A stretch of DNA of 64,000 bases from Pseudofrankia coriaricola (GTDB lineage: Bacteria > Actinomycetota > Actinomycetes > Frankiales > Frankiaceae), in NCBI RefSeq assembly GCF_001854805.1, contig NZ_MBLO01000036.1, forward strand, positions 254,534 to 318,533. The letters run 5' to 3'. Positions 26,471-40,666 of this stretch are shown in pieces. Both the position numbers and the translations under genes were made by a program. The notes under the pieces are model-generated. The model ran no database searches. It was not told where the DNA came from and was given only the letters and a program-made list of their open reading frames with translations. Numbering within the stretch: position 1 is the stretch's first letter; each line of letters starts with the position of its first letter.

Positions 26471-27115
26471 ATGGCTACAGGGACGAGGCAGACCGCGGAG
26501 GAGCGCCGCACGTCGGTGCTCGCGGCGGCCGTGGCGGAGTTCGCCCGGGGCGGGCTGGAGGGCACGTCGACTGAGACGATCGCCGCGGCGGTCGGGATCT
26601 CCCAGCCGTACCTGTTCCGGTTGTTCGGCTCGAAGAAGGGCCTGTTCCTGGCGGCGGTGCGGGAGACGTTCGCCCGGACGGTCGCCGCGTTCGAGAGCGC
26701 GGCGGGTGAGCGGTCCGGGCAGGAGGCGCTGACCGCCATGGCCGAGGCCTACAACGGCCTGCTGGCCGAGCCCAGCTACCTGCTCATGCAGATGCAGGCC
26801 TACGCGGCCTGCGGCGACCCGGACATCCGGGCCGCGACCCGGCGAGGGTTCCGCGACCTGTGGTACGCCGTCGAGCGCCTCGCCGGCCTGGACGTCGACG
26901 TGCTGCGCGCGTTCTTCGCCATGGGGATGCTCTGCAACGTCTCCGCGGCCATGGACCTGCCGGCCGTCGACGAGCGCTGGGCCCAGATCATCTGCCCTCC
27001 CGACGAGCCCGACTCGGGCAACTCGGGCATGAAGGCCAGCAAGGAGGCCCTCGTCAAAGGCTTCATGGGCACCACCACCGAGCCGGACGCCGACGCCGAC
27101 GCCGACGCCGACTGA
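26471..27115 (+). CDS. TetR-family regulator of the adjacent exporter
   Basis: 214 residues. The helix-turn-helix TETIAAAVGISQPYLFRLFGSKKGLF (about 33-58) is clear. The C-terminus ends in alternating Asp-Ala from a GACGCC tandem repeat (27089-27112), an unusual acidic tail likely made by slippage. It lies immediately upstream of an MFS exporter; AGTG-N6-CACT sites are found in its own promoter and before the exporter, so a classic repressor-pump pair is likely. Confidence 0.85.
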   Translation: MATGTRQTAEERRTSVLAAAVAEFARGGLEGTSTETIAAAVGISQPYLFRLFGSKKGLFLAAVRETFARTVAAFESAAGERSGQEALTAMAEAYNGLLAEPSYLLMQMQAYAACGDPDIRAATRRGFRDLWYAVERLAGLDVDVLRAFFAMGMLCNVSAAMDLPAVDERWAQIICPPDEPDSGNSGMKASKEALVKGFMGTTTEPDADADADAD

Positions 27116-27265
27116 AGTATTGGGCTCTTTGGCCCCGGTAGGGAAGCGTCCTTCCCCTATCTGAGTGGAGATCGACGGCCACCGCCCAGGAGCCACTCCC
27201 GCCGACAGCTCCATCGGCCTGCGCACCTTCGCTGAACGGCAAGACATTGCTGTGCCCGCACAAGC

Positions 27266-27281
27266 TAGTGGTCAGTCACTA
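27266..27281. promoter_or_regulatory. Operator-like palindrome before the MFS gene
   Basis: TAGTGGTCAGTCACTA has perfect five-base arms (TAGTG / CACTA) with a six-base centre, ending 16 bases before the exporter ATG. The arms match those in the TetR promoter. Confidence 0.6.
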
Positions 27282-27297
27282 CCTCGAAGGGAAACCG

Positions 27298-28761
27298 ATG
27301 ACCACCGACCGGAGCCGTCTCACCTGGACCTTCGTGATCACGTGCATCGCCGCGTTCATGACCTCCCTGGACAACCTGGTGGTCACGATGGCGCTGCCGT
27401 CGATCCGCGAGGGTCTGCACGCCAGCCTGGCCGAACTGGAATGGACGGTGAACGCCTATACCCTGACGTTCGCCGTCCTGCTGCTGCCCGCCGCGGCACT
27501 GGGCGACCGCCTCGGCCGCCGCCGCCTCTTCGCCATCGGCCTGTCGATCTTCACCGTGGCCAGCGCCGCCGCCGCGCTGGCGCCGAGCGTCGGCGCTCTC
27601 ATCGCCGCCAGGGCCGTGCAGGGCGTGGGCGGGGCGATCGTGTTGCCCTTGTCGATGACCCTGCTGTCGGCCGCTGTCCCCCCGGCGCGCCGGGGGGCCG
27701 CCCTCGGCGTCTGGGGTGCCGTGTCCGGCCTGGCCATCGCGTTGGGACCGCTCGTCGGCGGGGCCATCACGCAGGGCGCCGCCTGGCAGTGGATCTTCTG
27801 GCTGAACGTCCCGCTGGGCCTCGCCGCGATCCCGCTGGCGTTCGCCCGCCTCACCGAGAGCCGCGGGGCCGAAAGCCGGCTGGACATCGCCGGTACCGTC
27901 CTGGTCAGCCTGGGGCTGTTCGGGATCGTCCTCGGCCTGGTCCGCGGCCAGGACCATGGCTGGACCAGCGCCGGCGTCCTCGGCGCCATCGTCGCCGGCG
28001 TGGCGGGGCTCGCCGCCTTCGTCGCCTGGGAGCTGCGGTCCGAGCGAGCCGGACGCGCCCCGATGCTGCCGCTGAGCCTGTTCCGCGGGCGGGGGTTCGC
28101 GGCGGTCAACGCCGTCTCGGTCTTCTTCTCCTTCGGGATGTTCGGCTCGATCTTCCTGCTCTCCCAGTACCTGCAGAACGTCATGGGCTACTCGCCGCTG
28201 GGCGCCGGGCTGCGCACCCTGCCCTGGACCGCGATGCCGCTGATCGTGGCGCCGATCGCCGGCCCGCTGTCCGACCGCATCGGCGGGCGCCCGCTGATGA
28301 TCGCCGGACTGACCATGATGACCGGCGGGCTGCTGTGGATGCGCGCCGAACTGGCCCCCGACACGACGTTCCTGGCCCTGGTGCCCGCCTTCATCATCGC
28401 CGGCATCGGCATGGCCCTGTTCTTCGTCCCCGTCGCCAACGTGGTCATGGGGTCCGTGCCGCCCGAGTACGAGGGGGTCGCGTCCGGGACCAACAACGCG
28501 GTCCGCGAGGTCGGCGGGGTGTTCGGAATCGCGGTCCTGGCCTCGGTGTTCGCCGCGGCCGGCGGCTACGCCAGCGCCATCGACTTCACCCACGGGCTGC
28601 ACGTCGCCCTTCTCGTCGGCGCGGCCGTCACCGGGGCCGGAGCGCTTGGCTCCCTGCTCGTGCCCCGGCGACAGACGGCCGCCGTCACCGAGCTCGCCGA
28701 CGGCGACGCCGTTGAACCCGCGCCGGCCCTCCGCCTCGACCTCGAGCCCGCCAAGTCCTGA
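27298..28761 (+). CDS. MFS exporter, DHA2 (EmrB/QacA-like) family
   Basis: 487 residues, hydrophobic throughout with about 14 predicted membrane spans. MTSLDNLVVTMALPSIR at the first span, GDRLGRRRLF (motif A) and WQWIFWLNVPLG (motif C region) are hallmarks of proton-driven DHA2 drug exporters. It sits in the cytoplasmic membrane and probably expels an antibiotic or toxic intermediate, under control of the TetR gene upstream. ATG at 27298 has AAGGGA before it. Confidence 0.92.
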   Translation: MTTDRSRLTWTFVITCIAAFMTSLDNLVVTMALPSIREGLHASLAELEWTVNAYTLTFAVLLLPAAALGDRLGRRRLFAIGLSIFTVASAAAALAPSVGALIAARAVQGVGGAIVLPLSMTLLSAAVPPARRGAALGVWGAVSGLAIALGPLVGGAITQGAAWQWIFWLNVPLGLAAIPLAFARLTESRGAESRLDIAGTVLVSLGLFGIVLGLVRGQDHGWTSAGVLGAIVAGVAGLAAFVAWELRSERAGRAPMLPLSLFRGRGFAAVNAVSVFFSFGMFGSIFLLSQYLQNVMGYSPLGAGLRTLPWTAMPLIVAPIAGPLSDRIGGRPLMIAGLTMMTGGLLWMRAELAPDTTFLALVPAFIIAGIGMALFFVPVANVVMGSVPPEYEGVASGTNNAVREVGGVFGIAVLASVFAAAGGYASAIDFTHGLHVALLVGAAVTGAGALGSLLVPRRQTAAVTELADGDAVEPAPALRLDLEPAKS

Positions 28762-28928
28762 CCGTCCCGCTGCGGAGGTTCTTCGGCCCCTTCGAAGGGC
28801 GGCCGGGCGACGGACGGCACCCCGATCCACCCGCGCAAGCCAACCGATAGCACTGAAGGTGCCGAGCGAGGGTCCGGCCCAGGCCAGCGAGAGCCGACCG
28901 TTCCCACCTCCGGTACAGATCTCGAGAA

Positions 28929-28972
28929 GGTCAGAGCCCCGTACCCGGCAGATCCGGGACGGGGCTCTGACC
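28929..28972. terminator. Stem-loop downstream of the MFS gene
   Basis: GGTCAGAGCCCCGT (28929-28942) pairs with ACGGGGCTCTGACC (28959-28972); the loop contains a smaller CCCGG/CCGGG stem. It lies 167 bases past the MFS stop, just before the island border repeat. Confidence 0.75.
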
Positions 28973-29006
28973 TGTCTCACCAGGCGCGCCCCGGGGCACG
29001 CGACAA

Positions 29007-29341
29007 CTAGTCGGGGATGGCGCGCAGGTGGCGGGCCATGGTGAGCAGGCCGTTCGCGTTCATGTCCATCACCCGGCTGTGGATGTCATAACAGCCGGGC
29101 CGGATCTCCTCGATGCACGTCGCTCGAACCCGAACTCCTCGGGCGGACGGCCGGCCACGGCGTTCAGCCCGACATTGGTGATGACCTGGTCGCCGTAGAG
29201 CCAGGACATCGTCCCGTCGTCGCGACGGACGAACCGCGGCGCTTTCTCCCGGTACCGCGCCGGCAGCCTGCCCTCGAAGAGGTGGGCCGGCTCGACGACG
29301 TGGTCGTCCACGCTCACCATGACTAAGTCAGCGACGTCCAC
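29007..29341 (-). pseudogene. Truncated, frameshifted amidohydrolase remnant
   Basis: From a GTG at 29341 the frame reads VDDHVVEPAHLFEGRLPARY and continues through PPEEFGFE, matching the N-terminus of amidohydrolase-2 family proteins (about 400 residues). Near 29120 the reading shifts frame and resumes as IEEIRPGCYDIHSRVMDMNA, which is the continuation in that family. It then joins abruptly to LLTMARHLRAIPD and stops. So it has one frameshift plus a large deletion, and only about 110 of some 400 codons remain. The start overlaps the end of the double GntR gene. Confidence 0.8.
29009..29041. repeat. 33-base direct repeat, left copy
   Basis: Begins AGTCGGGGAT and ends GGCGGGCCATGG. It matches 39850-39882 at 32 of 33 bases. 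On the minus strand both copies encode MARHLRAIPD followed by stop. The copies frame the 10.8 kb P450 island. Confidence 0.85.
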
Positions 29342-30930
29342 GGGACACCTTCCTTCTCACCGATGAGGTCGATCACAAGCCGCCGGCCGAGCTCGGAGGA
29401 CTCGATGTCCGGCGAGTTGGCGTCGAGGGACTGCGCCCAGATGCGCGCGGCGCGGACGCCGTCCTCGGCCTCGAACGCGGCGACCAGTTCCGGGAAGAGC
29501 GCGACAAGGCGATGTGTCTCCGCGAGCCACGCCGGGTCGGTGATGGCCGAGCCCGCGGGGTTCGCCTGGGCGTCCGTGCGGACCCACTGCAGGACTTCGG
29601 CGATGACGGCGAGCGCCGGATTTCTCGTGGCGCCGAAGATGACCTTGCGTGCCGTCGTCCAGACCTCCGACAGGTCGGAGGCGTCCCGCGGCCGTGCCGC
29701 CAGGTCCGCGGCGAACGACCGTAGCGTAGCCAGCGAGGCCGGATCCATCCTGGCCACCGCCAGCTCGATCATGGAAGGCTCGATCATCGCGACGGCGCGG
29801 AAGAAGTCTCCCATCGTGGCGTGCCGGGCCTGCATGACCGTGCTGGCCAGCTGCACCGCCACCCGCGGCGACGGATGCCGGATCTGGGGCCCGTTGCGGT
29901 CGCCGGCACGCAGGTCGACGAGGAACTCCATCTCCAGGGTCCGGAGCGCCTCCCGCAACGTCGGCCGCGAGACCCCGAACTGCGCGGCCAGGTCCGGCAG
30001 ACCCGGCAGCCTGTCCCCGTCGCCCAGCCGCCCCTCGGCGATACGGGCCCTGATCTCGTCGGCGACCGTCGCGGCCAACCGGTTCGGCTGCCCTGGCTTC
30101 GAGGACTGCCCCGCCGCGGCGGAGTCGTTCCGCGGCCGCCACAGCGGGACGACGTCGATCGACTGGCGGCTGCGACCCCGGTCGACGAGGAGCGGGCTGG
30201 TGACGGCCAGGTAGTCGGCCCACGCCCTTCTCGCCATCGCCCCGTCGCGCCGCCGGGCGGCGTCCAGGAACGCGCTGTGGCAGGCGGTGACCGTCCGCGC
30301 GATCTCCTCCGCTGACGCCGGGCCCGAGGGGGCGACGGCCGCGTACACCTGTCCCGCGTAGACATCGCGGAAGATTCCGGCGACGAGCCCGACCGAGCGG
30401 TTGCCAGACCGTTCGGTGACCGCCGTGTCGAACCCCGCCGCGGCCATGACGAACGCCAGCGGATCATCCTCGGCCGCGCGTTCCTGGTCGTGAAGCCGCC
30501 CGAGAGCGTGCAGGTCCGCGGCGGAGCAGCGAACCGCGAACCGCTCGGCGAGTGGCGGCTCGAGCACCGCCCGGGCCTCCTCCAGATCCGCCAGCGTCGT
30601 TCCCCGCAACTGCAGGAGAAGCGCGAGGTAGCGGCCGATCGAGGCAAGCCCGGGGCGGCGGACGACGGCGCCGCCACCGCGGCCGCGCCGGACCTCGACC
30701 AGCGACTGCGACTCGAGGACCCGCAGCGCCTCGCGCACGGTCTCCCGCGACACGTCGAAGGTGGCCGTGAGCTCCGCCTCGGTCGCCAGCTGCTGGTCGG
30801 CGACGAGCTCACCGGACAGGATCTGCCGCCGCAGCTCCATCGCGACGAGGTGCGAGACCTTCGCCTCGCGCGGCGCCCGTGCCGGCCTGTCGGCGCCTGC
30901 CGAACCGACGTCGGCGGGTTGGGCGATCAT
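29323..30930 (-). CDS. Regulator with two tandem GntR-FCD units
   Basis: 535 residues. The first winged helix (residues 25-90, DVSRETVREALRVLE) is followed by an FCD-like helical domain (115-250). A second winged helix (285-350, GVSRPTLREALRTLE) and second FCD-like domain (360-510) follow. Ordinary GntR/FadR proteins have one of each and dimerise, so this chain looks like a covalent dimer. The halves are diverged. The ATG at 30930 overlaps the stop of a thiolase remnant and lacks its own clear ribosome site. It probably controls the adjacent P450 operon (inference). Confidence 0.82.
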   Translation of the reverse strand: MIAQPADVGSAGADRPARAPREAKVSHLVAMELRRQILSGELVADQQLATEAELTATFDVSRETVREALRVLESQSLVEVRRGRGGGAVVRRPGLASIGRYLALLLQLRGTTLADLEEARAVLEPPLAERFAVRCSAADLHALGRLHDQERAAEDDPLAFVMAAAGFDTAVTERSGNRSVGLVAGIFRDVYAGQVYAAVAPSGPASAEEIARTVTACHSAFLDAARRRDGAMARRAWADYLAVTSPLLVDRGRSRQSIDVVPLWRPRNDSAAAGQSSKPGQPNRLAATVADEIRARIAEGRLGDGDRLPGLPDLAAQFGVSRPTLREALRTLEMEFLVDLRAGDRNGPQIRHPSPRVAVQLASTVMQARHATMGDFFRAVAMIEPSMIELAVARMDPASLATLRSFAADLAARPRDASDLSEVWTTARKVIFGATRNPALAVIAEVLQWVRTDAQANPAGSAITDPAWLAETHRLVALFPELVAAFEAEDGVRAARIWAQSLDANSPDIESSELGRRLVIDLIGEKEGVPWTSLT

Positions 30931-31130
30931 GCGGTCAGTACCATCGCGCCGCACTGCGGGTAGAGCCCGCTGGTGACGACCGCGACCTCGGCGCCCGGTA
31001 CCTGCCGCTGGCCGCACCGGCCCCTCAAGCGCTGCAGCATGAGCCGCCCCGCGGCGGCGCCGTCCCTGTAGAAGCGCGAGATGTCGTCCGGCCACGGCCG
31101 CGGCCGCTGGTTCGTCACTGCCAGGTCTCC
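30927..31130 (-). pseudogene. C-terminal remnant of a lipid-transfer thiolase
   Basis: The last 35 codons read QRLRGRCGQRQVPGAEVAVV then TSG...GAMVL, equivalent to the C-terminus of the Ltp2-like protein at 40755 (RQLRGECGERQVAGARVAAV). Upstream of about 31090 no thiolase sequence is recognisable. About 90% of the gene is missing. Its stop codon overlaps the ATG of the double GntR gene, as in an intact operon. Confidence 0.7.
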
Positions 31131-31243
31131 ACGTCTGCCCCGCCCGTCTTTCCCGTCGACACCAGCAGACAACCGCAGACGAGGCACCTCGTCAACTGTT
31201 TGCCGCTCGCAGAGCGGCCCAGGTCGTCGCCATGTGCGGGAAA

Positions 31244-31279
31244 CCAAGGCTTGACGGCCAGCCTCGTCAGATGTTTATG
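31244..31279 (+). promoter_or_regulatory. Possible promoter of the P450 island
   Basis: CCAAGGCTTGACG (31244-31256) repeats the 13-mer of the TetR promoter at 26429. TTGACG is followed after 17 bases by TTTATG, a poor -10. It lies 235 bases before the first P450 and is the only promoter-like signal I see there. Confidence 0.35.
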
Positions 31280-31351
31280 TGTGCCATCCGAGATCGACAC
31301 CGAGATCACACGGTGGTCGAGGTGACGTTCGGCAAGATCCGCAACGTCCGC

Positions 31352-31420
31352 ATGACCGGCACGAGCATCCCGATCGACGGGGGATCCATGGCCAAGTGGC
31401 CGAACGGGCCCGGCCAGTAA
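31352..31420 (+). pseudogene. C-terminal remnant of an SDR
   Basis: The frame ending at 31420 reads MTGTSIPIDGGSMAKWPNGPGQ in the form of the classical SDR C-terminus (TG...PIDGG). No Rossmann fold or active site precedes it. Small, but the TGTSIPIDGG motif is characteristic. Confidence 0.55.
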
Positions 31421-31513
31421 CGCCTCTGGGGACGGAGGCCGCCCGAACCAGCTGTTCCACCTGCCTGGCCAGACACAGAAGTTGCCACCTTCGATCAAAC
31501 GTGGAAGGTCGAC

Positions 31514-32725
31514 ATGTCGTACAGCGAACGGGCACCCGTCGACGAGGAACGTCGTCGCCTCTTACACGAGCGAGCGGCATGCCCTCGGGAGCACTTCGCC
31601 GCGCTTCGGGCCCAGGGGCCGACGACGCCGCTGCTCGAGAACGACACCATCACCTGTCTGCTGGGCCGCCGCGACGTCGAAGACGCGCTGAAGAACTGGC
31701 AGGACTTCACGTCCGACTTCGGTGGGGTCATGGGGAGCGAGGAGCCGCTCATCCCCCTTAATGTCGACCCGCCGCTGCACGCGAAGTACCGCCGGCTGCT
31801 CGACCCCTACTTCGGGCCGCGCAGGATGAAGGCGCTGCAGCCCGCGGTGGAGAAGCACACGAACGACCTGATCGACGCCTTCATCGACCGCGGCGGCTGC
31901 GACTTCTCCCAGGAGGTCGCGGTGCCGCTGCCGTGCTCGACGTTCCTGAGCCTTTTCGGCCTGCCGTTGGAACAGCGCGACGCGCTGGTGCGCTGGAAAG
32001 ACATCATGATCCGCCCAGACGTCGTCGCCGAAGATCCGAGCCAGGCGCAGCAGCTCCAGCTCGAAACGGCCATGGAGATCTACGGCCGGTTCACCGAGGA
32101 GATGGCCGACCGCCGTGCGAACCCGCGTGACGACCTGATCACCTATCTCACGCAGGCGGAGGTCGAGGGGCAGAAACTCACCGACAGCGAGATAGTGCGC
32201 ATCTGCTTCCTGCAGCTGTCCGCCGGGCTGGACACCGTGACCATCTCCCTGGAGTGCATCTTCGCCTTCCTCGCCGGCCACGACGACGCGCGCGGGATGC
32301 TGGTCGAGGAGCCGGGCTCGGAGGTCGACCTCATCGAGGAGCTCCTGCGCTGGGAGACGCCGGTGCAGGCGGTCGGGCGCCAGGCCACCCGGGACATCAC
32401 GCTCCGGGACGGCACCGTGATCCCCAAGGGGACGGACGTCAACCTCATGCTCGCCTCCGCCAACGTCGACCCGGACGGGCTGGCGGGCGCCGACGAGGTG
32501 GACGTGCGGCGCGGCGAGATGCGCAACTTCGCGTTCGGAGGCGGACCGCACCGCTGCCTCGGATCAAATCTGGCGCGCATGGAGCTGCGCACGGTGGTGC
32601 GGGTCTGGCACGAGCGAATCCCCGAGTACTCGCTACAGCCGGGCACGGACGTGGAATGGAACAGCTCGCTGTTGCGTGGCGTCGACCACCTGCGGCTCGC
32701 CTGGCCGGCAGGAGCGACGTCATGA
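31514..32725 (+). CDS. Cytochrome P450, first gene of the island
   Basis: 403 residues. The I-helix LSAGLDTVT has the Asp-Thr pair, ExxR is in ELLRWETPV, and the haem loop FGGGPHRCLGSN holds Cys348. It differs clearly from the paired P450s at 5040 and 16348. Its TGA overlaps the ATG of a ferredoxin (ATGA), so electrons are probably delivered by that partner. It heads the run of coupled genes that ends at 38024; the amidohydrolase follows about 107 bases further on. Confidence 0.93.
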   Translation: MSYSERAPVDEERRRLLHERAACPREHFAALRAQGPTTPLLENDTITCLLGRRDVEDALKNWQDFTSDFGGVMGSEEPLIPLNVDPPLHAKYRRLLDPYFGPRRMKALQPAVEKHTNDLIDAFIDRGGCDFSQEVAVPLPCSTFLSLFGLPLEQRDALVRWKDIMIRPDVVAEDPSQAQQLQLETAMEIYGRFTEEMADRRANPRDDLITYLTQAEVEGQKLTDSEIVRICFLQLSAGLDTVTISLECIFAFLAGHDDARGMLVEEPGSEVDLIEELLRWETPVQAVGRQATRDITLRDGTVIPKGTDVNLMLASANVDPDGLAGADEVDVRRGEMRNFAFGGGPHRCLGSNLARMELRTVVRVWHERIPEYSLQPGTDVEWNSSLLRGVDHLRLAWPAGATS

Positions 32726-32919
32726 AGATCTGTATCGACTCCGACCTGTGTGCCGGGCACGCCCGCTGCTGGGAGACGGCGCCCGACCTCCTCGTCGACG
32801 ACGAGGACGGGCGCGGCGTCGTGCGCGCCCCCGGCGCCGACATTCCCCCTGAGCTCGAGGCGCAGGCCCGCAAGGCCGCCAGCGTGTGCCCGGAAGGCGC
32901 GGTCGTCCTCTCGAACTGA
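32722..32919 (+). CDS. Ferredoxin, 3Fe-4S type, P450 partner
   Basis: 65 residues. CAGHARC near the N-terminus has the CxxHxxC pattern (His or another residue replaces the second cysteine of a 4Fe-4S set) and SVCPEGA supplies the last ligand. Such small acidic ferredoxins shuttle electrons from a reductase to a P450. Starts inside the P450 stop codon. No ferredoxin reductase gene is in the window. Confidence 0.92.
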   Translation: MKICIDSDLCAGHARCWETAPDLLVDDEDGRGVVRAPGADIPPELEAQARKAASVCPEGAVVLSN

Positions 32920-32984
32920 GGACTGGGACATCAATTAGCCGGCTACCTCGCGCGGGCGCGGGAGATGCCCTTTTGGGGCGATTG

Positions 32985-34301
32985 ATGCCGAAGAACGAGA
33001 AGGAGACGACCGAAGCAATGCCTGACTACGGCACGACCGATTTCTTCCTGGGCCCGGATCTCGTCGAGAACCCGTATCCGTACTTCGAGTACCTGCGTGG
33101 CCAGTGCCCCGTGCACCGGGAGAGCCAGCACGGCGTCGTGATGGTCACCGGTTTCGAGGAGGCCGTCGAGATCCAGAACGACGCGGAGCGGTATTCCTCG
33201 TGCAACTCGGTGGCCGGCCCGTTGTTCCCGTTCCCGGTGCCGCTCGAGGGCCACGACGTCAGCGCGCTGATCGAGGCGCATCGCTACGAGCTGCCGTTCA
33301 GTGACATGTTGCTGTGCCTCGACCCGCCGGAGCACACGGCCCATCGTGGGCTGCTGATGCGGCTGATCACGCCGAAGCGCCTGCGGGAGAACGAGGCGTA
33401 CATGCGTCAGGTCGCCGAGCGCCAGATCGACACGTTCATCGACAAGGGCGGGTGTGATTTCATCCGTGACTTCGCCACTCCGTTCACACTGCTCATCATC
33501 GCGGATCTGATCGGCGTTCCCCCGGAGGACCGGGACGGGTTCCTGGAGGGTATGTCCCAGCCCACGGGCGGTGGCGTCGGCAGCACGACGGGCGAAGCGA
33601 TGGGCGCCAACCCGCTCGCCTGGCTCTACGAGAAGTTCGCCACGTATGTCGAGGACCGCCGTCGCAACCCGCAGGACGACGTGCTCACCGGTCTGGCGAC
33701 CGCCACGTTCAAGGACGGCTCCCTGCCCGAGGTCATGGACGTCGTGCGCATCGCCGCGATCATCTTCGCGGCCGGCCACGAGTCCAGCACGCGCTTCCTC
33801 TCCAGCGCGTTCAGGATTCTCGCCGAGGAGCCGGAGGTCCAGGCCAGGCTGCGCGCCGAGCCAGGGCTCATCCCGAACTTCATAGAGGAGACCCTGCGCA
33901 TGGAGAGCGTGGTCAAGGGCGACTTCAGGCTCGCCAGGGTCCCGACGGAGGTCGGCGGGACGGAGATCCCCGCCGGCAGCCACGTGTTCCTGCTGCACGG
34001 AGCGGCCAACCGGGACCCCAGGAAGTTCGAGGACCCGTCGGAGTTCCAGCTGGAACGCCCCAACGCGCGCCAGCACCTCGCCTTCGGGCGGGGCGTGCAC
34101 ACCTGCCCGGGTGCCCCGCTCGTGCGCAGCGAGGCGGCCGTCGCCATCGAGCAGCTCCTCGCCCGTACCAGCGACATCCGCTTCTCGGAGGAAATCCACG
34201 GCCCCGCCGGGGCGCGCCGGTTCAACTACGTTCCCTCGTTCGTGCTGCGCGGCCTCACCGGCCTCACGCTTGAGTTCGACCCGCGGGGCGCCGCCGCATG
34301 A
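32985..34301 (+). CDS. Cytochrome P450, second gene of the island
   Basis: 438 residues from the ATG at 32985; ATG at 33018 (427 residues) is an alternative, matching the usual family N-terminus. The haem loop FGRGVHTCPGAP contains Cys374, and ExxR lies in ETLRMES. The I-helix is AAGHESST: the usual Thr after the acid is Ser, a conservative change at the oxygen-activation site. It differs strongly from the first P450, so the two probably act at different positions or on successive intermediates. Its stop overlaps the next gene by four bases. Confidence 0.92.
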   Translation: MPKNEKETTEAMPDYGTTDFFLGPDLVENPYPYFEYLRGQCPVHRESQHGVVMVTGFEEAVEIQNDAERYSSCNSVAGPLFPFPVPLEGHDVSALIEAHRYELPFSDMLLCLDPPEHTAHRGLLMRLITPKRLRENEAYMRQVAERQIDTFIDKGGCDFIRDFATPFTLLIIADLIGVPPEDRDGFLEGMSQPTGGGVGSTTGEAMGANPLAWLYEKFATYVEDRRRNPQDDVLTGLATATFKDGSLPEVMDVVRIAAIIFAAGHESSTRFLSSAFRILAEEPEVQARLRAEPGLIPNFIEETLRMESVVKGDFRLARVPTEVGGTEIPAGSHVFLLHGAANRDPRKFEDPSEFQLERPNARQHLAFGRGVHTCPGAPLVRSEAAVAIEQLLARTSDIRFSEEIHGPAGARRFNYVPSFVLRGLTGLTLEFDPRGAAA

Positions 34302-35188
34302 CGGACCCTGTCCGTCAGCCGCGGGTCGGACTTCTCTACCGGCAGACCGACACCTCGATGCCGCTGGTCGAGCTCGCCCGCGCCGCCGAGGAACGCGGCT
34401 TCGACTGCATCGTCGTCGGCGAGCACACCCACATCCCGGTAAGCCGTATGTCCCCGTTCCCCGGCACCATCGACGGCGAGCTGCCGGACGCGTACCCCCA
34501 TTTCCCCGACCCGTACGTCGCGCTCGCGTTCATCGCCGCGCGGACCTCGCTGCGGATCGCCGCGGGGATCGCCCTCGTCGCCCAGCACGACCCGATCGCG
34601 CTCGCGAAGACCATCGCGACGCTCGACCATCTGTCCGGCGGGCGGTTCACCCTCGGCGTGGGGTTCGGCTGGAACCAGGAGGAGCTCGCCAACCACGGGA
34701 AGGACTTCACCGACCGCCGGGAGATCGTCCGCGAGCACATCGAGCTGATGAGGGCGCTGTGGACGCGGGAGGAGGCCGAGTACCACGGCCGGCACGCCAA
34801 CCTCGAGCGCAGCTGGTCCTGGCCGAAGCCCGCGCAGGGCTCGGTACCCGTGCTTCTCGGCGTCCAGGGCGGCGACCGCGGCTTCGAGGCGATCATCGGT
34901 TGGGCCGACGGCTGGCTGCCCGGCGGGAGCCACGGGAGGTGGCTGGCCGCCAAGCTGGGCGAGCTGCGCAGCAGGTGGGTCGACGCCGGCCGTCCCGCGT
35001 CCGGCCCCATCGTGTGGCCGATGCAGGACGTGGTCGACGACGACCGGCTGCGCGTCCAGCTCGAGCGCTTCCACGAGCTCGCGGTCGACCAGGTCGTTCT
35101 CGACATCCCGACCACCACCCGCGAGGAGATCCTGCCGCTGCTCGACCGCTACGCGAAGGTCGTCACGACCGAATGGGGCCACCGATGA
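34298..35188 (+). CDS. LLM-class F420-type oxidoreductase (first of a pair)
   Basis: 296 residues. VVGEHTHIPVSRMSPFPG, LVAQHDPIALAKTIATLDHL and LGVGFGWNQEEL are the typical coenzyme and substrate-cleft segments. It is a paralogue of the gene at 37146 in the same operon (shared ANLERSWSWPKPAQ). Overlaps the P450 and the ferredoxin by four bases on each side. It may reduce a double bond or oxidise an alcohol produced by the P450s; cofactor F420 or FMN is inferred from the family. Confidence 0.88.
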   Translation: MTDPVRQPRVGLLYRQTDTSMPLVELARAAEERGFDCIVVGEHTHIPVSRMSPFPGTIDGELPDAYPHFPDPYVALAFIAARTSLRIAAGIALVAQHDPIALAKTIATLDHLSGGRFTLGVGFGWNQEELANHGKDFTDRREIVREHIELMRALWTREEAEYHGRHANLERSWSWPKPAQGSVPVLLGVQGGDRGFEAIIGWADGWLPGGSHGRWLAAKLGELRSRWVDAGRPASGPIVWPMQDVVDDDRLRVQLERFHELAVDQVVLDIPTTTREEILPLLDRYAKVVTTEWGHR

Positions 35189-35394
35189 GGGCGGAGGTCG
35201 ACGCGAGCGCCTGCGCCGGCCACGGCGTGTGCGTGGGCCACGCTCCCGACGTGTTCGAGCTGACCGACGAGGGCTACTCCGTCGTGCGGGTGGACGAGGT
35301 CCCGGCCCAGTACGAGGCAGCTGTCCGCCTGGCGGTCAAACAGTGCCCGACGTACTCCATCACGATCACAGGAGGCATGGGTAACGATGTCTGA
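35185..35394 (+). CDS. Ferredoxin, 3Fe-4S type (second)
   Basis: 69 residues. CAGHGVCVGHAP gives the CxxHxxC pattern, and KQCPTYS the last cysteine. Distinct from the first ferredoxin. Two ferredoxins for two P450s suggests that each oxygenase has a dedicated carrier. Overlaps the LLM gene by four and the SDR by eight bases. Confidence 0.9.
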   Translation: MRAEVDASACAGHGVCVGHAPDVFELTDEGYSVVRVDEVPAQYEAAVRLAVKQCPTYSITITGGMGNDV

Positions 35395-36223
35395 GCAGCC
35401 AGCGGGCACGTTGAGCGGCAAGGTCGTCATCATCACGGGCGCGGCTTCGGGGATGGGACGGGCGGCCGCGGTCCGGTGCGCCGAACTGGGCGCGGCGGTG
35501 GTCGCCGCCGACCTGAACGCGGACGGCGCGGCCGCCGTCGCCGGCGAGATCGAGTCGTCCGGCGGTACGGCGCTCGGCTTCGGCGTCGACCTGACCGTCG
35601 AGGACGAGGTGACCGCGCTCGTCGACGCCGCGGTCGCTCGGTTCGGCACGGTGCATGGCCTGCACAACAACGCCTACGCGGTTCATCCGGGAGCGGCGGT
35701 CGACCTGGTCAACACGACCCTGGAGGCGTGGGACTGGACGATCCGGACGTGCCTGACCAGCCAGTTCCTGTGCTGCCGCGCCGCGCTCCCCCACATGCTG
35801 CGGGGCGGCGAGGGATCCATCATCAACGTGTCCTCCGGCAACGGGCTGGCCGGCGCGGCGGGCGCCGCGGCCTACGGCGCGGCGAAGGCCGGCAGCATCA
35901 TGCTGACCAAGTACATCGCCACCCAGTACGGCAAGTCCGGCGTCCGGTGCAACACGCTGGTGCCCGGCTGGACCATCGGGACCGGCTGGACGGGCGAGGA
36001 CAACTACACCGACAGCCAGCAGAAGCTGTTCGACCGCGCGCTGGACGACGTGTGCATGCCCCGCCTCGCGCTGCCCGAGGACATCGCCCCCGTCGTCGCG
36101 TTCCTCTTCTCCGACGAGGCCAGGTACCTGCAGGCCGCCACCATCGACGTCAACGGCGGACTGCTGGCCCACATGCCCGGCGCGGCCGGCAGGCCTGCCC
36201 GGCCCACCCCGGCCGACACATGA
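35387..36223 (+). CDS. Short-chain dehydrogenase of the P450 operon
   Basis: 278 residues. TGAASGMG (17-24), NNAYA in place of the usual NNAG, Ser in NVSSGNG, and YGAAK as the catalytic Tyr/Lys pair. It ends in a proline-rich tail. Likely oxidises the alcohol made by a P450 (inference from operon position). The NNAYA change is an oddity near the active site. Confidence 0.88.
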   Translation: MSEQPAGTLSGKVVIITGAASGMGRAAAVRCAELGAAVVAADLNADGAAAVAGEIESSGGTALGFGVDLTVEDEVTALVDAAVARFGTVHGLHNNAYAVHPGAAVDLVNTTLEAWDWTIRTCLTSQFLCCRAALPHMLRGGEGSIINVSSGNGLAGAAGAAAYGAAKAGSIMLTKYIATQYGKSGVRCNTLVPGWTIGTGWTGEDNYTDSQQKLFDRALDDVCMPRLALPEDIAPVVAFLFSDEARYLQAATIDVNGGLLAHMPGAAGRPARPTPADT

Positions 36224-37149
36224 GCTCGCCGCGGGCGATGGCGGCGGCGAGCGAGCAGGCCCGGGCGGTGCACCGGATGCTGCGTGACCAGCGCGGCGCC
36301 GCCCGTGCGTCGGCCCCTCCGTCACGCGCCGCGCAGCTCGCCATGGCCGAGGAGATCGGCAACAGCACGTCCGAGCCGGACGGGGTGACGTTCGAGGATG
36401 TCGACGCTGGCGGGGTGCCCGCGCAGTGGGCGCGGCCCGACGGCGCGCCGACGAACAGGGTGCTCCTCTACCTCCACGGCGGCGGCTACTGCTTCTGCTC
36501 GGTCCGCTCCCACCGCAGGCTCGTCGGGCACCTCGCCAGGGCGGCGGGCCGCCAGGCACTGAGCGTGGACTACCGGCTGGCGCCCGAGCACCCCCATCCC
36601 GCCGCCGTGACGGACGCCCTGACCGCCTACCGGTGGCTCCTCGAACAAGGCCTCGACCCCGCCCACCTGGCCGTCGCCGGTGACTCGGCCGGCGGCGGGC
36701 TCGCCGTCGCGCTCCTGCTGAGGGCGAGGAACGAGGGCCTGCCGCCTCCGTCGGGCGCGGTGCTCCTGTCGCCCTGGGTCGACCTCGCCATGACGGCCGA
36801 CAGCCTGACCAGCCGAGCCGACGTCGACGTACGCCAGAGCCCCGCCGAGACGCGGTGGTGCGCGGGCCAGTACCTCGCCGGTCAGGACCCGCGTGACCCC
36901 TACGCGTCGCCGCTCTACGCCGACCTCACCGGCCTGCCGCCCCTGTACATCCAGGCCAGCGACTGGGACACGCTCGTCGACGACGCGCATCGCCTGGCCG
37001 AGAAGGCCCGGCGCCTCGGGGTCGACGTCCGCCTCGATCTCTTCCCAGAGATGCCGCACGCGCATCAGCTGTGGGCGGGCACCATCCCCGAGGCCGACGA
37101 CGCCGTCGCCCGCGTCGGCGAGTACCTGCGAGAAAGGGAAACCTCATGA
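36220..37149 (+). CDS. Alpha/beta hydrolase, hormone-sensitive-lipase family
   Basis: 309 residues. HGGGY (86-90) is the oxyanion motif, Ser156 in GDSAGG the nucleophile; the acid lies in the QASDWDTLVDDA segment and His in MPHAHQLW. It hydrolyses short acyl esters or lactones. In this operon it might open a lactone made by a Baeyer-Villiger type step or release an ester group before oxidation. Overlaps both neighbours by four bases. Confidence 0.9.
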   Translation: MSSPRAMAAASEQARAVHRMLRDQRGAARASAPPSRAAQLAMAEEIGNSTSEPDGVTFEDVDAGGVPAQWARPDGAPTNRVLLYLHGGGYCFCSVRSHRRLVGHLARAAGRQALSVDYRLAPEHPHPAAVTDALTAYRWLLEQGLDPAHLAVAGDSAGGGLAVALLLRARNEGLPPPSGAVLLSPWVDLAMTADSLTSRADVDVRQSPAETRWCAGQYLAGQDPRDPYASPLYADLTGLPPLYIQASDWDTLVDDAHRLAEKARRLGVDVRLDLFPEMPHAHQLWAGTIPEADDAVARVGEYLRERETS

Positions 37150-38024
37150 CAGGCGCGGCCACGTTCCCGGGCGTCGGCGTGCTCTATCGCGCGACGGACC
37201 AGATGCCGTTCCTCGAGCTCGCCTACGCCGCCGCCGATCGGGGCTTCGCCTCACTCGTCCTCGGTGAGCACACCCACATTCCCCTCAGCTCCGACCCCGC
37301 CTGCTTTCCGGGCGCCGGGGACACCATCCCTCCGACTTACCCGCGGCTGCTCGACCCGTACATGGCGCTCTCGTTCGTCGCCGCGCGGACTCCCATGAAG
37401 ATTGCGACCTGTACGTCCCTTCCCGCCCAGCACGACCCGATTGCCCTGGCCAAGGCCCTCGCGACGCTCGACCACCTGTCCGGGGGGCGCCTCACGCTCG
37501 GCGTGGGATACGGCTGGAACGCCGACGAGCTGGTCAGCCACGGGCACGAGTGGAAGAACCGGCGGGCGATCGTGCGGGAACACGTCGAGCTCATGCGGGC
37601 GCTGTGGACCGAGACCGAAGCCGAATACCACGGCCAGTACGCCAACCTCGAGCGCAGCTGGTCCTGGCCGAAGCCGGCGCAGTCCTCGATCCCGGTGCTC
37701 CTGGGCGCCGCCGGGCGCGGCCTCGCGATGGAGGCGATCGTCCAGTGGGCCGACGGCTGGATGCCGGGCGGAAGCATCAGCTGGATCGCGAACCGGCTCG
37801 TGGAGCTTCGACGCCGGTGGTCCGAGGCCGGACGCCCAGAGTCCGGCCCAGTCATCTGGGTGGTCCAGGACCCCATTGACGACGACAGGTTCCAATCCCG
37901 GCTGGAACGCCTTGCATCACTGGGTGTCGCCGAAGTTGTGGTCGCCTTCGACACGGTGGACAAGGACGAGATTCTACCGGTTCTCGATCGCTACGCGAAG
38001 CTGATCGCGACGAACGCCGGCTGA
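37146..38024 (+). CDS. LLM-class F420-type oxidoreductase (second of a pair)
   Basis: 292 residues, parallel to the 34298 protein through most of its length (GEHTHIP, QHDPIALAKALATLDHL, ANLERSWSWPKPAQ). The adjacent copies probably arose by duplication in the operon and then diverged. It is the last gene joined by an ATGA overlap; a 107-base gap with three imperfect repeats separates it from the amidohydrolase. Confidence 0.88.
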   Translation: MTGAATFPGVGVLYRATDQMPFLELAYAAADRGFASLVLGEHTHIPLSSDPACFPGAGDTIPPTYPRLLDPYMALSFVAARTPMKIATCTSLPAQHDPIALAKALATLDHLSGGRLTLGVGYGWNADELVSHGHEWKNRRAIVREHVELMRALWTETEAEYHGQYANLERSWSWPKPAQSSIPVLLGAAGRGLAMEAIVQWADGWMPGGSISWIANRLVELRRRWSEAGRPESGPVIWVVQDPIDDDRFQSRLERLASLGVAEVVVAFDTVDKDEILPVLDRYAKLIATNAG

Positions 38025-38067
38025 TCCTGACCCCGCGACGAGTCAGGGCACGGGACCTGGCGGCACA

Positions 38068-38115
38068 CAGGGCTGGAATCAAACAGGGCTGGAATGACAC
38101 AGGACTGGGATCAAA
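38068..38115 (+). repeat. Three 16-base imperfect tandem repeats
   Basis: Units CAGGGCTGGAATCAAA, CAGGGCTGGAATGACA and CAGGACTGGGATCAAA follow each other without spacer, and a fourth CAGGAAGGGA supplies the ribosome site of the amidohydrolase. Confidence 0.85.
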
Positions 38116-38131
38116 CAGGAAGGGACCACTC

Positions 38132-39379
38132 ATGGTCGAGGACATCATCCTCTCAGCGGACGGGCATTTCGTCGAGCCCACGGATCTGTTCACCAGCCGT
38201 CTTCCGAAACACCTGCGGGAACTCGCGGTCTGGGAGGAGGACTTCGAGATCGAGCCGCTCGGGGAAGATGGAAACCACCATTTCCGGAAGCTGCACACGC
38301 CGGGCTTCGAAGGCTGGGCATACGCCCGTTACCGTCACCACGACGGAACGCCGCAGTACGGCGACCCCGCCCGGATCATCGAGGACCTCGACCACGAGGG
38401 CGTCCGGGCGACGCTGATGCATCCCAACCACGCGCTGTTCGGGTTGTTCACCCACGACCATCACGAGCTGTCGATGGCGCACGCCCGGGTCTACAACGAC
38501 TACGCGGCGGAGGTCTTCGGGCCGTACCGCGATCGGGTGATCACCACCATGCCCATCCCGATGAGCGATCTCGACGACGCCGTCGCCGAGATCGAGCGGG
38601 TGGCCGCCCTGGGGGCACGAGCGCTCATCCTTCCGGCGACGTCGCCGATCCCGTACACCTCACGAGCGCTCGACCGGGTGTGGGCGGCGGCGCAGGCCCA
38701 CGGGATGGTCATCGCCTTCCACGTGGCGACCGGCGGCGTGAAGGTGCGCAAGGACGCGGCGCCGACACTCCAGGCGATGATTGCCACTGCTCAGGCCCAG
38801 AACCGCGAGGTGCTGGACGACCAGCTAATCGTCGACCGCTTGATGGGTGCGGCCGTGCTGGGCCCCGTGGCCGCACAGCGGATCGTCGTGTCGCTGGTCG
38901 GTGCCGGGGTGCTCGAGCGGTTCCCAGATCTTCACTTCCTGCTGGTGGAGTTCAACGCCAACTGGCTCGTCTCGACGATGGCCGCGATGGACAAGGCCTG
39001 GACGCTCGGAGTCGGGCAGAACCGCGACTTCTGGGCCGGCACGTGGGACGACGCCCGCGCCGCCGACGACCAGCCGGGCATGGCCCAGCTGTTCCGGCTC
39101 AACGAGCGCTGGCCGTACCCGCTCATGCCGAGCGAGTACGTCCAGCGCCAGATCCACGTCTCCTTCCAGGAGGACCCCATGGCGATCGCCTGCCGGCACG
39201 TCACCGGCATCTCCACGCTGCTGTGGGGCATGGACTACCCGCATGCCGAAGGGACCTTCGGGCGCAGCCGCCAGGTCATCGACTACCTGTTCAAGGACGT
39301 CGAGCCCGAGGAGCGCCAGGCGATCCTCGGCGGCACGCTGGGCGGGCTGCTCGGCCTGCACGCCCCAAGCCCGGCCTGA
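38132..39379 (+). CDS. Amidohydrolase-2 family protein
   Basis: 415 residues. LSADGHFVEPTDLF opens the barrel, HPNHALF and AFHVATGG contribute further ligands, and GMDYPHAEGTF provides the metal-binding Asp. The family includes decarboxylases and C-C or C-N hydrolases, often placed after oxygenases in aromatic and terpenoid pathways. It is the last intact gene before the island's right border. It belongs to a different subgroup from the remnant at 29007. Confidence 0.85.
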   Translation: MVEDIILSADGHFVEPTDLFTSRLPKHLRELAVWEEDFEIEPLGEDGNHHFRKLHTPGFEGWAYARYRHHDGTPQYGDPARIIEDLDHEGVRATLMHPNHALFGLFTHDHHELSMAHARVYNDYAAEVFGPYRDRVITTMPIPMSDLDDAVAEIERVAALGARALILPATSPIPYTSRALDRVWAAAQAHGMVIAFHVATGGVKVRKDAAPTLQAMIATAQAQNREVLDDQLIVDRLMGAAVLGPVAAQRIVVSLVGAGVLERFPDLHFLLVEFNANWLVSTMAAMDKAWTLGVGQNRDFWAGTWDDARAADDQPGMAQLFRLNERWPYPLMPSEYVQRQIHVSFQEDPMAIACRHVTGISTLLWGMDYPHAEGTFGRSRQVIDYLFKDVEPEERQAILGGTLGGLLGLHAPSPA

Positions 39380-39518
39380 GTCCTGGATCGGGCCTCCGGA
39401 CGCGCCAGCGGCTTGGCCACTTCCCCTGTCGGCCTCCCGGCACTTTTCCCGGCGCCCCCTCAGACCGAAGCCGCGCACCCGCTTCGCGCACCGAGACAAC
39501 CCGCGAGATAGGACGACC

Positions 39519-39758
39519 ATGCAGCGTCTCGACACCTCCCGTATCGGCACGCCCCATAGACGACTCCGACACCGCCCGGAGGTGGTGCTCTTAACCCTGC
39601 CCTTGGCCGCGGTCACCTTCCTGGCCGCCGGCTGCGGAGGCGACGGAAAGGCCGACACCGCCGGCCGTGTGCGTGCGCGGCGGACTGATCACAGTCCTGG
39701 ACGACAAGGGTGTACCCACCGTTACAAGCCCATCGGCCAGTCCCCGATCGAGGGCTGA
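39519..39758 (+). pseudogene. Lipoprotein remnant with internal deletion/frameshift
   Basis: ATG at 39519, then RHRPEVVLLTLPLAAVTFLA and AGCGGDGKADTAG: a proper lipoprotein signal with lipobox LAAGC. The mature part is only about 35 codons and reads nonsense in this frame. A better protein-like segment, GGLITVLDDKGVPTVTS, is in another frame, and the original frame returns as YKPIGQSPIEG before stop. This looks like both ends of a substrate-binding lipoprotein with most of the middle lost. It is followed 12 bases later by a strong terminator. Confidence 0.55.
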
Positions 39759-39770
39759 CAGGATCCGGAA

Positions 39771-39808
39771 GGCCCCCGACAGTCCGCCGACGCGGACTGT
39801 CGGGGGCC
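39771..39808. terminator. 17-base-pair stem-loop, right end of the island
   Basis: GGCCCCCGACAGTCCGC (39771-39787) and GCGGACTGTCGGGGGCC (39792-39808) pair perfectly over a four-base loop. It separates the rightward island operon from the leftward SDR. Confidence 0.85.
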
Positions 39809-39847
39809 GCCGCCCGCCGCCTGCCGACCGCGGGCCCGACCTGAACC

Positions 39848-40666
39848 TCAGTCGGGGATCGCGCGCAGGTGGCGGGCCATGGCAAGCGGGGTGACGGTCA
39901 GGACGCCGGAGTCGACGGGCAGGGTGACGCCGGTGACCCAGCGGGCGTCGTCGCTGGCGAGGAAGCCGACCGCCGCGGCGACGTCCCAGCCGGTGCCCTC
40001 CGTGCCGAGCAGGCCGGCCTCCTTGCGCAGCGTGTCGACGTAGTCCGAGGACTGGCCGGGGATCGACAGCACCATCGGCGTGACGATGTGGCCGGGGGCG
40101 ATGGCGTTGACCCGGATGCCCTGGCGGCCGTGGGCGTAGGCCATCTCGACGGTCATCGCGAGCATGGCGCCCTTGGCGGCCGAGTAGGCGATCGTGCCGT
40201 CCCCGCGCAGCCCGGAGATCGACGCGATGTTGACAACCGAGCCGGAGCCCTGCGCCGCCATCACCGGGAGCGTGTACTTGCAGGCCAGGAACATCGTGCG
40301 CAGGTTGATGTCCAGCGCCTTGTCCCAGGCCTCCTCGGTGATGTCGATGACCGTGCCGACCGAGGCCATGCCGATGTTGTTGACCAGGATGTCGATGGTT
40401 CCGAACGCGTCGACGGCGGCCTTCGCCATCGCCTCGCAGGCGGCGGCCTTGGTGCAGTCGCCGGCGAAGACCTCCGCCTTCCCGCCCTCGGACTCGATCA
40501 GCTTCTTCGTCTCCTCGGCCCGGTCCGCGAACAGGTCGACGAGCAGCACGCTCGCACCCTCGCGCGCGAGCACCACCGCGCTGGCCTTGCCCGTGCCGAC
40601 GCCCGGGCCGGGCGTCGAGCCGGCCCCCGTCACGATCGCGACCTTGCCCTCGACCCGACCGGCCAT
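39848..40666 (-). CDS. Short-chain dehydrogenase
   Basis: 272 residues from ATG at 40666 (GGAAGGGG upstream). The glycine motif is expanded (TGAGSTPGPGVGTG, 13-26), NNIG replaces NNAG, and the active site is Ser149/151, Tyr161, Lys165 (YSAAK). It ends with the MARHLRAIPD tail shared with the remnant at 29007. It lies 88 bases after the Ltp2-like gene on the same strand and probably supplies the 3-hydroxyacyl oxidation step in that operon. Confidence 0.87.
   Translation of the reverse strand: MAGRVEGKVAIVTGAGSTPGPGVGTGKASAVVLAREGASVLLVDLFADRAEETKKLIESEGGKAEVFAGDCTKAAACEAMAKAAVDAFGTIDILVNNIGMASVGTVIDITEEAWDKALDINLRTMFLACKYTLPVMAAQGSGSVVNIASISGLRGDGTIAYSAAKGAMLAMTVEMAYAHGRQGIRVNAIAPGHIVTPMVLSIPGQSSDYVDTLRKEAGLLGTEGTGWDVAAAVGFLASDDARWVTGVTLPVDSGVLTVTPLAMARHLRAIPD
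39850..39882. repeat. 33-base direct repeat, right copy
   Basis: One mismatch to the left copy at 29009-29041. Here it is the 3' end of the intact SDR gene. Confidence 0.85.

Follow-up and report, generated by a model that had tools for sequence, protein, structure and literature searches.

The window described here is a 64,000-nucleotide stretch of the Pseudofrankia coriaricola genome, part of contig C36 (NZ_MBLO01000036.1) of this 11.2-Mb actinobacterial genome. It carries nine open reading frames in one direction (genes A to I, 31514-39379; Table 1). Comparison with related genomes shows that these genes and a divergent regulator gene make up a cassette of about 11 kb (~29042-39849) that is either present or absent as a whole. 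The cassette is real, discrete and rare, and its enzymes, taken singly, belong to known families. We propose with moderate confidence, from gene content and context, that it is horizontally mobile and, under the control of its regulator, encodes the catabolism of a hydrophobic ring compound, either terpenoid-like or aromatic.

The block is defined by a genome of the same genus, G028. This genome is collinear with the window, and the flanking genes mostly encode proteins of 85-99% identity. The regulator gene (29323-30930) and all nine genes are missing from it. Instead, a major facilitator superfamily (MFS) gene (27298-28761) is followed directly by a short-chain dehydrogenase/reductase (SDR) gene (39848-40666). 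At the nucleotide level the insertion falls between ~29042 and ~39849, with both flanks ~94.5% identical. The cassette is absent from the corresponding place in genomes G029 and G033 too. A 33-bp direct repeat flanks it, with two copies in the window (32/33 identical) and one in G028. The pair looks like the footprint of integration or recombination at a gene 3' end. No integrase was recognised among the cassette genes. Atypical composition was rejected as a sign of foreign origin, the GC content being 0.701 in the cassette and 0.711 and 0.730 in the flanks, a small difference. The insertion place itself is an apparent hot spot (28761-39848; L109-L114). Besides the cassette, G029 and G033 are missing the TetR and MFS genes (26516-28761), which G028 possesses; two gains in succession are therefore likely there.

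The regulator and genes A to I, in unchanged order, are also found in a sister species, G031, where the nine proteins are 84-97% identical to those here. The dN/dS ratio (nonsynonymous to synonymous substitution) between the two species is 0.05-0.38 in eight of the genes and reaches 0.60 in that of ferredoxin 2, which is short. The regulator is thus part of the same unit as genes A to I, which goes beyond the module of nine genes proposed in a first-pass annotation of the sequence. In G031 the unit adds a tenth gene for an intact Peripla_BP_6 solute-binding protein, of which just the N- and C-terminal ends are left in the window. At the left edge lies a remnant of another PtmU3-like gene (29069-29341), without a Pfam hit. 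It is mostly absent in G031 and has full-length relatives elsewhere in the genus. The cassette was probably once larger.

The nine genes lie at the coordinates first given for them, and Pfam and NCBIfam confirm their families. The order is P450, single-cluster ferredoxin, P450, luciferase-like (LLM) enzyme, ferredoxin, SDR, Abhydrolase_3 esterase, LLM enzyme and PF04909 protein. Six of the seven joins between A and H overlap by 4-8 bp. Five of these overlaps measure 4 bp, namely A/B (32722-32725), C/D (34298-34301), D/E (35185-35188), F/G (36220-36223) and G/H (37146-37149), and E/F (35387-35394) measures 8 bp. The first-pass annotation listed all six positions correctly and miscounted them as seven of eight genes. 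It also described a 65-bp gap between ferredoxin 1 and P450-2 as the sole break in this run, which holds with an ATG at 32985. The alignment to CYP150A6 starts at residue 13 of P450-2, and AGAAGGAG precedes an ATG at 33018. The true start may therefore be 33018, which would make the gap 98 bp. The 107-bp spacing between H and I was reported correctly. A 16-bp tandem repeat (3.3 copies, 38067-38119) lies in that spacing and could be a processing or regulatory element or a chance occurrence. A consensus scan for promoters and terminators returned no promoter-like site, and terminator-like sites at chance level.

The overlaps alone are unremarkable, because sampled stretches of the host genome show an overlap in 35 of 133 co-directional neighbour pairs. 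Six or more overlaps in seven joins have a chance probability of about 0.002 under independence, and joins are in fact not independent. We take the presence or absence of the whole block to be the stronger evidence of unity. Co-inheritance as a block, with an empty site in G028 and a full set in G031, bears out the compact module first described.

The cassette encodes two P450 systems in a genome with dozens of P450 genes (86 pieces matching P450). The two P450s are as dissimilar as first noted, at about 32% identity. P450-2 matches CYP150A6 at 220 of 423 residues (52%). CYP families are set at >40% identity and subfamilies at >55%. P450-2 thus falls in CYP150 and, with CYP150A6 as the sole member compared, below the CYP150A subfamily level. 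P450-1 matches its closest solved relative, CYP143, at 120 of 331 residues. This is 36%, below the family level, and assignment to CYP143 was rejected. Its identity to P450s of genus g2 is higher, at about 51%.

Each P450 appears to have its own ferredoxin. The two ferredoxins carry the motifs CAGHARC...CP and CAGHGVC...CP, which fit the pattern CXX?XXC(X)nCP, where the variable site is not a cysteine and the gene lies beside a P450. In Mycobacterium marinum, such CxxHxxC histidine variants are P450 partners, and those examined were isolated as [3Fe-4S] proteins (PMC6237146). At three other loci (L097, L106 and L107) a CYP150 gene is followed by its ferredoxin gene with a 4-bp overlap and no LLM or other gene between. 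P450-1 homologues are likewise followed by a ferredoxin gene at three more (L103, L104 and L105). A ferredoxin tree splits by P450 partner with support of 87/89, placing ferredoxin 2 with CYP150-linked proteins and ferredoxin 1 with those linked to P450-1. Because this tree and the neighbour pairs elsewhere both divide by P450 partner, each ferredoxin belongs with its own P450. The one-to-one pairing first suggested is thereby supported by two separate lineages, with the [3Fe-4S] type predicted from the motif. The LLM1 gene, which separates P450-2 from ferredoxin 2 here, looks like an insertion. In genus g2 the P450-1/ferredoxin pair lies among genes of a branched-chain-type ATP-binding cassette (ABC) transporter, and a Peripla_BP_6 protein gene adjoins the ferredoxin gene. 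In two genomes of family f4 (L104 and L105) the pair adjoins an apparent panB gene, with an RNase H-like gene near it in L105 (families read by eye).

The two LLM enzymes both exceed the curated TIGR03619 cut-off (Table 1). They are 60% identical and are each other's closest relatives, with tree support of 100/99. The pair arose by duplication within the host lineage, as judged from this tree. Both LLMs occur at high identity only in the host and in G031 among 394 genomes of the class and 35 of the order. A scan of the genome collection with LLM1 gave just two relatives, at 40-42%, which are not members. The first-pass annotation was right that there are two such enzymes. It did not recognise the arrangement with two of them as a described pathway. 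Pairs of LLM oxygenases do have a precedent, the diketocamphane monooxygenases that act in camphor breakdown. The PDB matches listed for LLM1 included none of these. The host genome encodes F420 biosynthesis (cofD). The best solved relative of the SDR is PtmO8, which is weak evidence of function.

Gene I had been read as an amidohydrolase, one of a set of downstream hydrolases. Its family, PF04909, stands. The enzyme itself is probably a PtmU3-type dinuclear-metal monooxygenase and would be the third oxygenase of the cassette. Its best solved relative is PtmU3 (130 bits), ahead of DitZ, SfbO (8sm6) and AibH2 (6m1w). PtmU3 is a nonheme diiron monooxygenase that acts on a diterpenoid-coenzyme A (CoA) substrate (as cited in PMC10127204). 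The name amidohydrolase-related dinuclear oxygenases (AROs) has been given to PF04909 enzymes with dinuclear sites, and decarboxylases and hydrolases belong to the same family (PMC10811679). We compared the gene I residues with published ligands of AibH2 and PtmU3 (PMC7782822) and LynB7 (PMC10127204). AibH2 uses D25, H27, H211, E265, D337 and H340, and an extra acidic residue, E313 in PtmU3 and D342 in AibH2, is said to mark binuclear members (PMC7782822). Gene I has the same pattern of D, H, H, E, D and H, with an acidic residue two positions after the last histidine. All seven residues (Table 1) are kept and are invariant in 11 close homologues. The oxygenase prediction is well founded because PtmU3 is the best match and the metal-site set is complete. 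Pfam found no Rieske domain among the nine genes; such a domain served as a published neighbourhood search criterion for dinuclear oxygenases and is not part of their chemistry.

Homologues of gene I recur near CYP150. Proteins of 52-60% identity are encoded 3-9 kb from a CYP150 gene at six loci in two bacterial families (L089, L090, L091, L092, L094 and L098). L089 also has a PtlE-like Baeyer-Villiger-type flavoprotein. L098 belongs to the same genome and contig (C36:141000-160999). It encodes a CYP150, a ferredoxin, a PtmU3-like protein and a MarR regulator, together with a 3-carboxyethylcatechol 2,3-dioxygenase (446 bits, cut-off 291), an acyl-CoA dehydrogenase and an enoyl-CoA hydratase. 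This second cluster is a better-defined place for assigning a role to the PtmU3-like oxygenase.

We propose the following pathway. A hydrophobic ring compound, terpenoid-like or aromatic, would enter the cell and relieve or trigger the double GntR-FCD regulator. The compound would then be hydroxylated at two positions by the two P450/[3Fe-4S]-ferredoxin pairs, both supplied by a ferredoxin reductase whose gene lies elsewhere. The SDR would oxidise an alcohol to a ketone. The LLM paralogs would then act on related intermediates, either by F420-dependent hydride transfer or by Baeyer-Villiger-type oxygenation, and the esterase would open the resulting ester or lactone. Gene I, as a PtmU3-type diiron (or Mn/Fe) monooxygenase, would hydroxylate a late, possibly CoA-bound, intermediate. 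The products may feed the thiolase, CoA-transferase and acyl-CoA ligase genes already around the insertion site. These surroundings encode thiolases, ChsH2-type OB-fold proteins, family III CoA-transferases and an acyl-CoA (AMP-)ligase. By analogy, this order of steps would follow the logic of camphor breakdown.

Breakdown of an exogenous ring compound is favoured over biosynthesis because the ring-opening and CoA genes of homologous clusters, the transporter context and the CoA-linked genes of the insertion site point the same way together. Natural-product tailoring is a rather unlikely alternative. On that view the cassette enzymes would modify a terpenoid whose biosynthetic genes lie elsewhere in the genome, much as PtmU3 and PtmO8 act in the platensimycin pathway. 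Genes I and F each have a protein of that pathway as their best solved relative, and secondary metabolism commonly uses P450-ferredoxin pairs with this motif (PMC6237146). However, the SDR similarity says little about function, and no terpene cyclase, polyketide synthase (PKS) or nonribosomal peptide synthetase (NRPS) domain was found by Pfam in the nine genes and 20 flanking genes, where a platensimycin-type cluster would have its core. The homologous clusters also contain ring-cleavage and beta-oxidation-type genes, and the sister-species cassette includes a solute-binding protein. Gene I could instead be an ordinary PF04909 hydrolase or an ACMSD-like decarboxylase, at the end of a P450/LLM detoxification set that finishes in hydrolysis. 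The Pfam family name, Amidohydro_2, weak ACMSD structure matches and the decarboxylases and hydrolases within PF04909 (PMC10811679) all suit this idea. We consider it unlikely, as ACMSD decarboxylases reach about 27 bits against 130 bits for PtmU3, and the acidic residue said to mark binuclear members (PtmU3 Glu313, AibH2 Asp342; PMC7782822) corresponds to E373 in gene I, which does not vary among close homologues. It is very improbable that the genes form no pathway and are a chance run of generic oxidoreductases, compact only as host operons are compact. The genome has about 75 P450s, many P450, LLM and SDR genes lie nearby, and the background of overlapping pairs given above would suit such a run. 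Against it stand the presence or absence of the block together with its regulator, the bracketing direct repeat, the signature of purifying selection and the cognate ferredoxin-P450 lineages.

Several observations weigh against the catabolic cassette as we propose it. The cassette has neither a CoA ligase nor a ferredoxin reductase. The solute-binding gene is destroyed in the host genome, so uptake there must use something else. The closest homologues of gene I (67-69%) neighbour a TauD dioxygenase gene and SnoaL-like genes, and the stretches read there contain no CYP150. A single-sequence structure model of gene I, at a predicted local distance difference test (pLDDT) score of 36, was too poor to use. 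In a fold comparison of the LLMs, itself made on a low-confidence model, flavin mononucleotide (FMN) and F420 structures scored alike. Finally, the first-pass annotation had suggested a search for the same nine-gene order in other genomes. It is present in one other species only, G031. The shared order there was rejected as independent conservation and is not independent evidence of selection for that order, because collinearity between G031 and the window extends through all of the region read, well beyond the cassette.

A further possibility, which we put forward tentatively and think unlikely, is that the PtmU3-type oxygenase works with the P450s in a mobile catabolic unit and takes its electrons from their [3Fe-4S] CxxHxxC ferredoxins. 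Such ferredoxins would then be a novel type of electron donor for the class, and the operon would encode a ring-degradation route that combines heme, flavin/F420 and dinuclear-metal oxygen chemistry. The two distinct ferredoxins in one operon offer a direct test of P450-ferredoxin specificity and of electron supply to the oxygenase, and the G028-type empty site is a natural knock-out for growth comparison. Many actinobacterial PF04909 'amidohydrolases' are annotated as hydrolases. The repeated linkage of PtmU3-like, CYP150 and ring-opening genes suggests that oxygenases mislabelled in this way are widespread in catabolism.

Table 1. Features of the cassette and its edges (window coordinates)
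Feature	Position	Strand	Basis
Left copy of 33-bp imperfect direct repeat (3' end of SDR gene); left edge of cassette	29009..29041	.	32/33 identical to 39850-39882; single copy at G028 empty site
N-terminal remnant (90 aa) of another PtmU3/amidohydrolase-like gene	29069..29341	-	55-58% to full-length 427-434 aa proteins in L122, L124
Divergent regulator, tandem GntR-FCD + GntR-FCD fusion (535 aa)	29323..30930	-	Pfam GntR and FCD, two stretches each; 92% in G031; absent at G028 empty site
A: cytochrome P450-1	31514..32725	+	No characterised family; 36% to CYP143, 51% to genus g2 P450s; Cys-heme motif FGGGPHRCLG
B: ferredoxin 1, P450-1 partner	32722..32919	+	CxxHxxC...CP; Fer4_15/Fer4_13; groups with ferredoxins beside P450-1 homologues
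C: cytochrome P450-2, CYP150 family	32985..34301 (start may be 33018)	+	52% to CYP150A6, PDB 6dcd, E 2e-150
D: LLM1, TIGR03619 (F420 Rv2161c-type) luciferase-like oxidoreductase	34298..35188	+	238.9 bits, cut-off 166.9
E: ferredoxin 2, P450-2 partner	35185..35394	+	CxxHxxC...CP; groups with ferredoxins directly after CYP150 genes elsewhere
F: short-chain dehydrogenase/reductase	35387..36223	+	adh_short_C2; best solved relative PtmO8, 171 bits
G: alpha/beta-hydrolase esterase, hormone-sensitive-lipase type (GDSAG)	36220..37149	+	Abhydrolase_3; EstD11 285 bits
H: LLM2, sister paralog of LLM1	37146..38024	+	TIGR03619 215.6 bits; 60% to LLM1, tree support 100/99
I: PF04909 protein, predicted PtmU3-like dinuclear-metal monooxygenase	38132..39379	+	PtmU3 E 8e-37; D10 H12 H197 E273 D368 H371 E373
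Tenth-gene remnant: Peripla_BP_6 solute-binding protein with internal deletion	39519..39760	+	N- and C-terminal pieces match intact G031 gene L032:6843-8093; Pfam
Right copy of 33-bp direct repeat, in 3' end of SDR gene 39848-40666	39850..39882	.	

Other genomes and loci of the genus (L116-L123) encode homologues (54-60%) of the double GntR-FCD regulator. At L119-L123 the homologue adjoins an apparent molybdenum-hydroxylase-type gene set (family read by eye). ARAGORN placed a tRNA-Gly (gcc) at 29957-30034 on the minus strand, inside the conserved 535-aa regulator gene, and this call is probably a false positive. Beyond the cassette, a double CoA-transferase gene (43863-46439) has an in-frame 66-bp tandem repeat (2.4 copies, 95%; 43865-44020) at its 5' end.

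The operon was not recognised at first as a described pathway, a view that would have fallen had an identical operon been assigned a substrate. Neither such an operon nor any description of this nine-gene order was found in the literature searched (CYP150, Frankia, PtmU3 and related). The nearest whole-pathway likeness is camphor catabolism in Pseudomonas putida, which uses P450cam, a dehydrogenase, paired LLM diketocamphane monooxygenases and hydrolysis. Both systems have a P450 and ferredoxin, a dehydrogenase, twin LLM enzymes and ring opening. They differ in that the cassette has TIGR03619 LLMs, another ferredoxin type, an extra P450 and a diiron-type enzyme. A camphor-type system would carry a diketocamphane-type LLM and a 2Fe-2S ferredoxin, whereas the ferredoxins here are of Fer4_15 type and no such LLM is among the PDB matches listed. 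Platensimycin biosynthesis supplies the best solved relatives of genes I and F, PtmU3 and PtmO8, but neither a diterpene synthase nor another biosynthetic core lies in or beside the cassette.

The individual P450 systems have closer counterparts. P450-2 is of the same family as CYP150A5/CYP150A6 of M. marinum, and its partner ferredoxin has the same CxxHxxC(X)nCP motif as Fdx8 (PMC6237146, PDB 6dcd). CYP150A5 with a His-type ferredoxin converts beta-ionone to 4-hydroxy-beta-ionone (PMC6237146), and cyp150 has been proposed, on correlative evidence, to act in pyrene breakdown (PMC10301208). Unlike that system, P450-2 stays below the 55% subfamily level, an LLM gene stands between it and its ferredoxin, and its operon also includes a second P450 pair. 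CYP143/FdxE of Mycobacterium tuberculosis (PMC9868604, PDB 8amq) provides the closest solved relative of P450-1, again with a His-type 3Fe-4S ferredoxin adjoining the P450. In contrast to the arrangement here, the ferredoxin gene is divergent in M. tuberculosis, and at 36% identity the two P450s are of different families. Gene I carries the whole metal-ligand set of PtmU3, AibH2, SfbO and LynB7 and is closest to PtmU3 (PMC10811679, PMC7782822, PMC10127204). AROs so far identified by neighbourhood sit with Rieske [2Fe-2S] ferredoxins, whereas gene I lies beside two [3Fe-4S]-type ferredoxins that would serve P450s.

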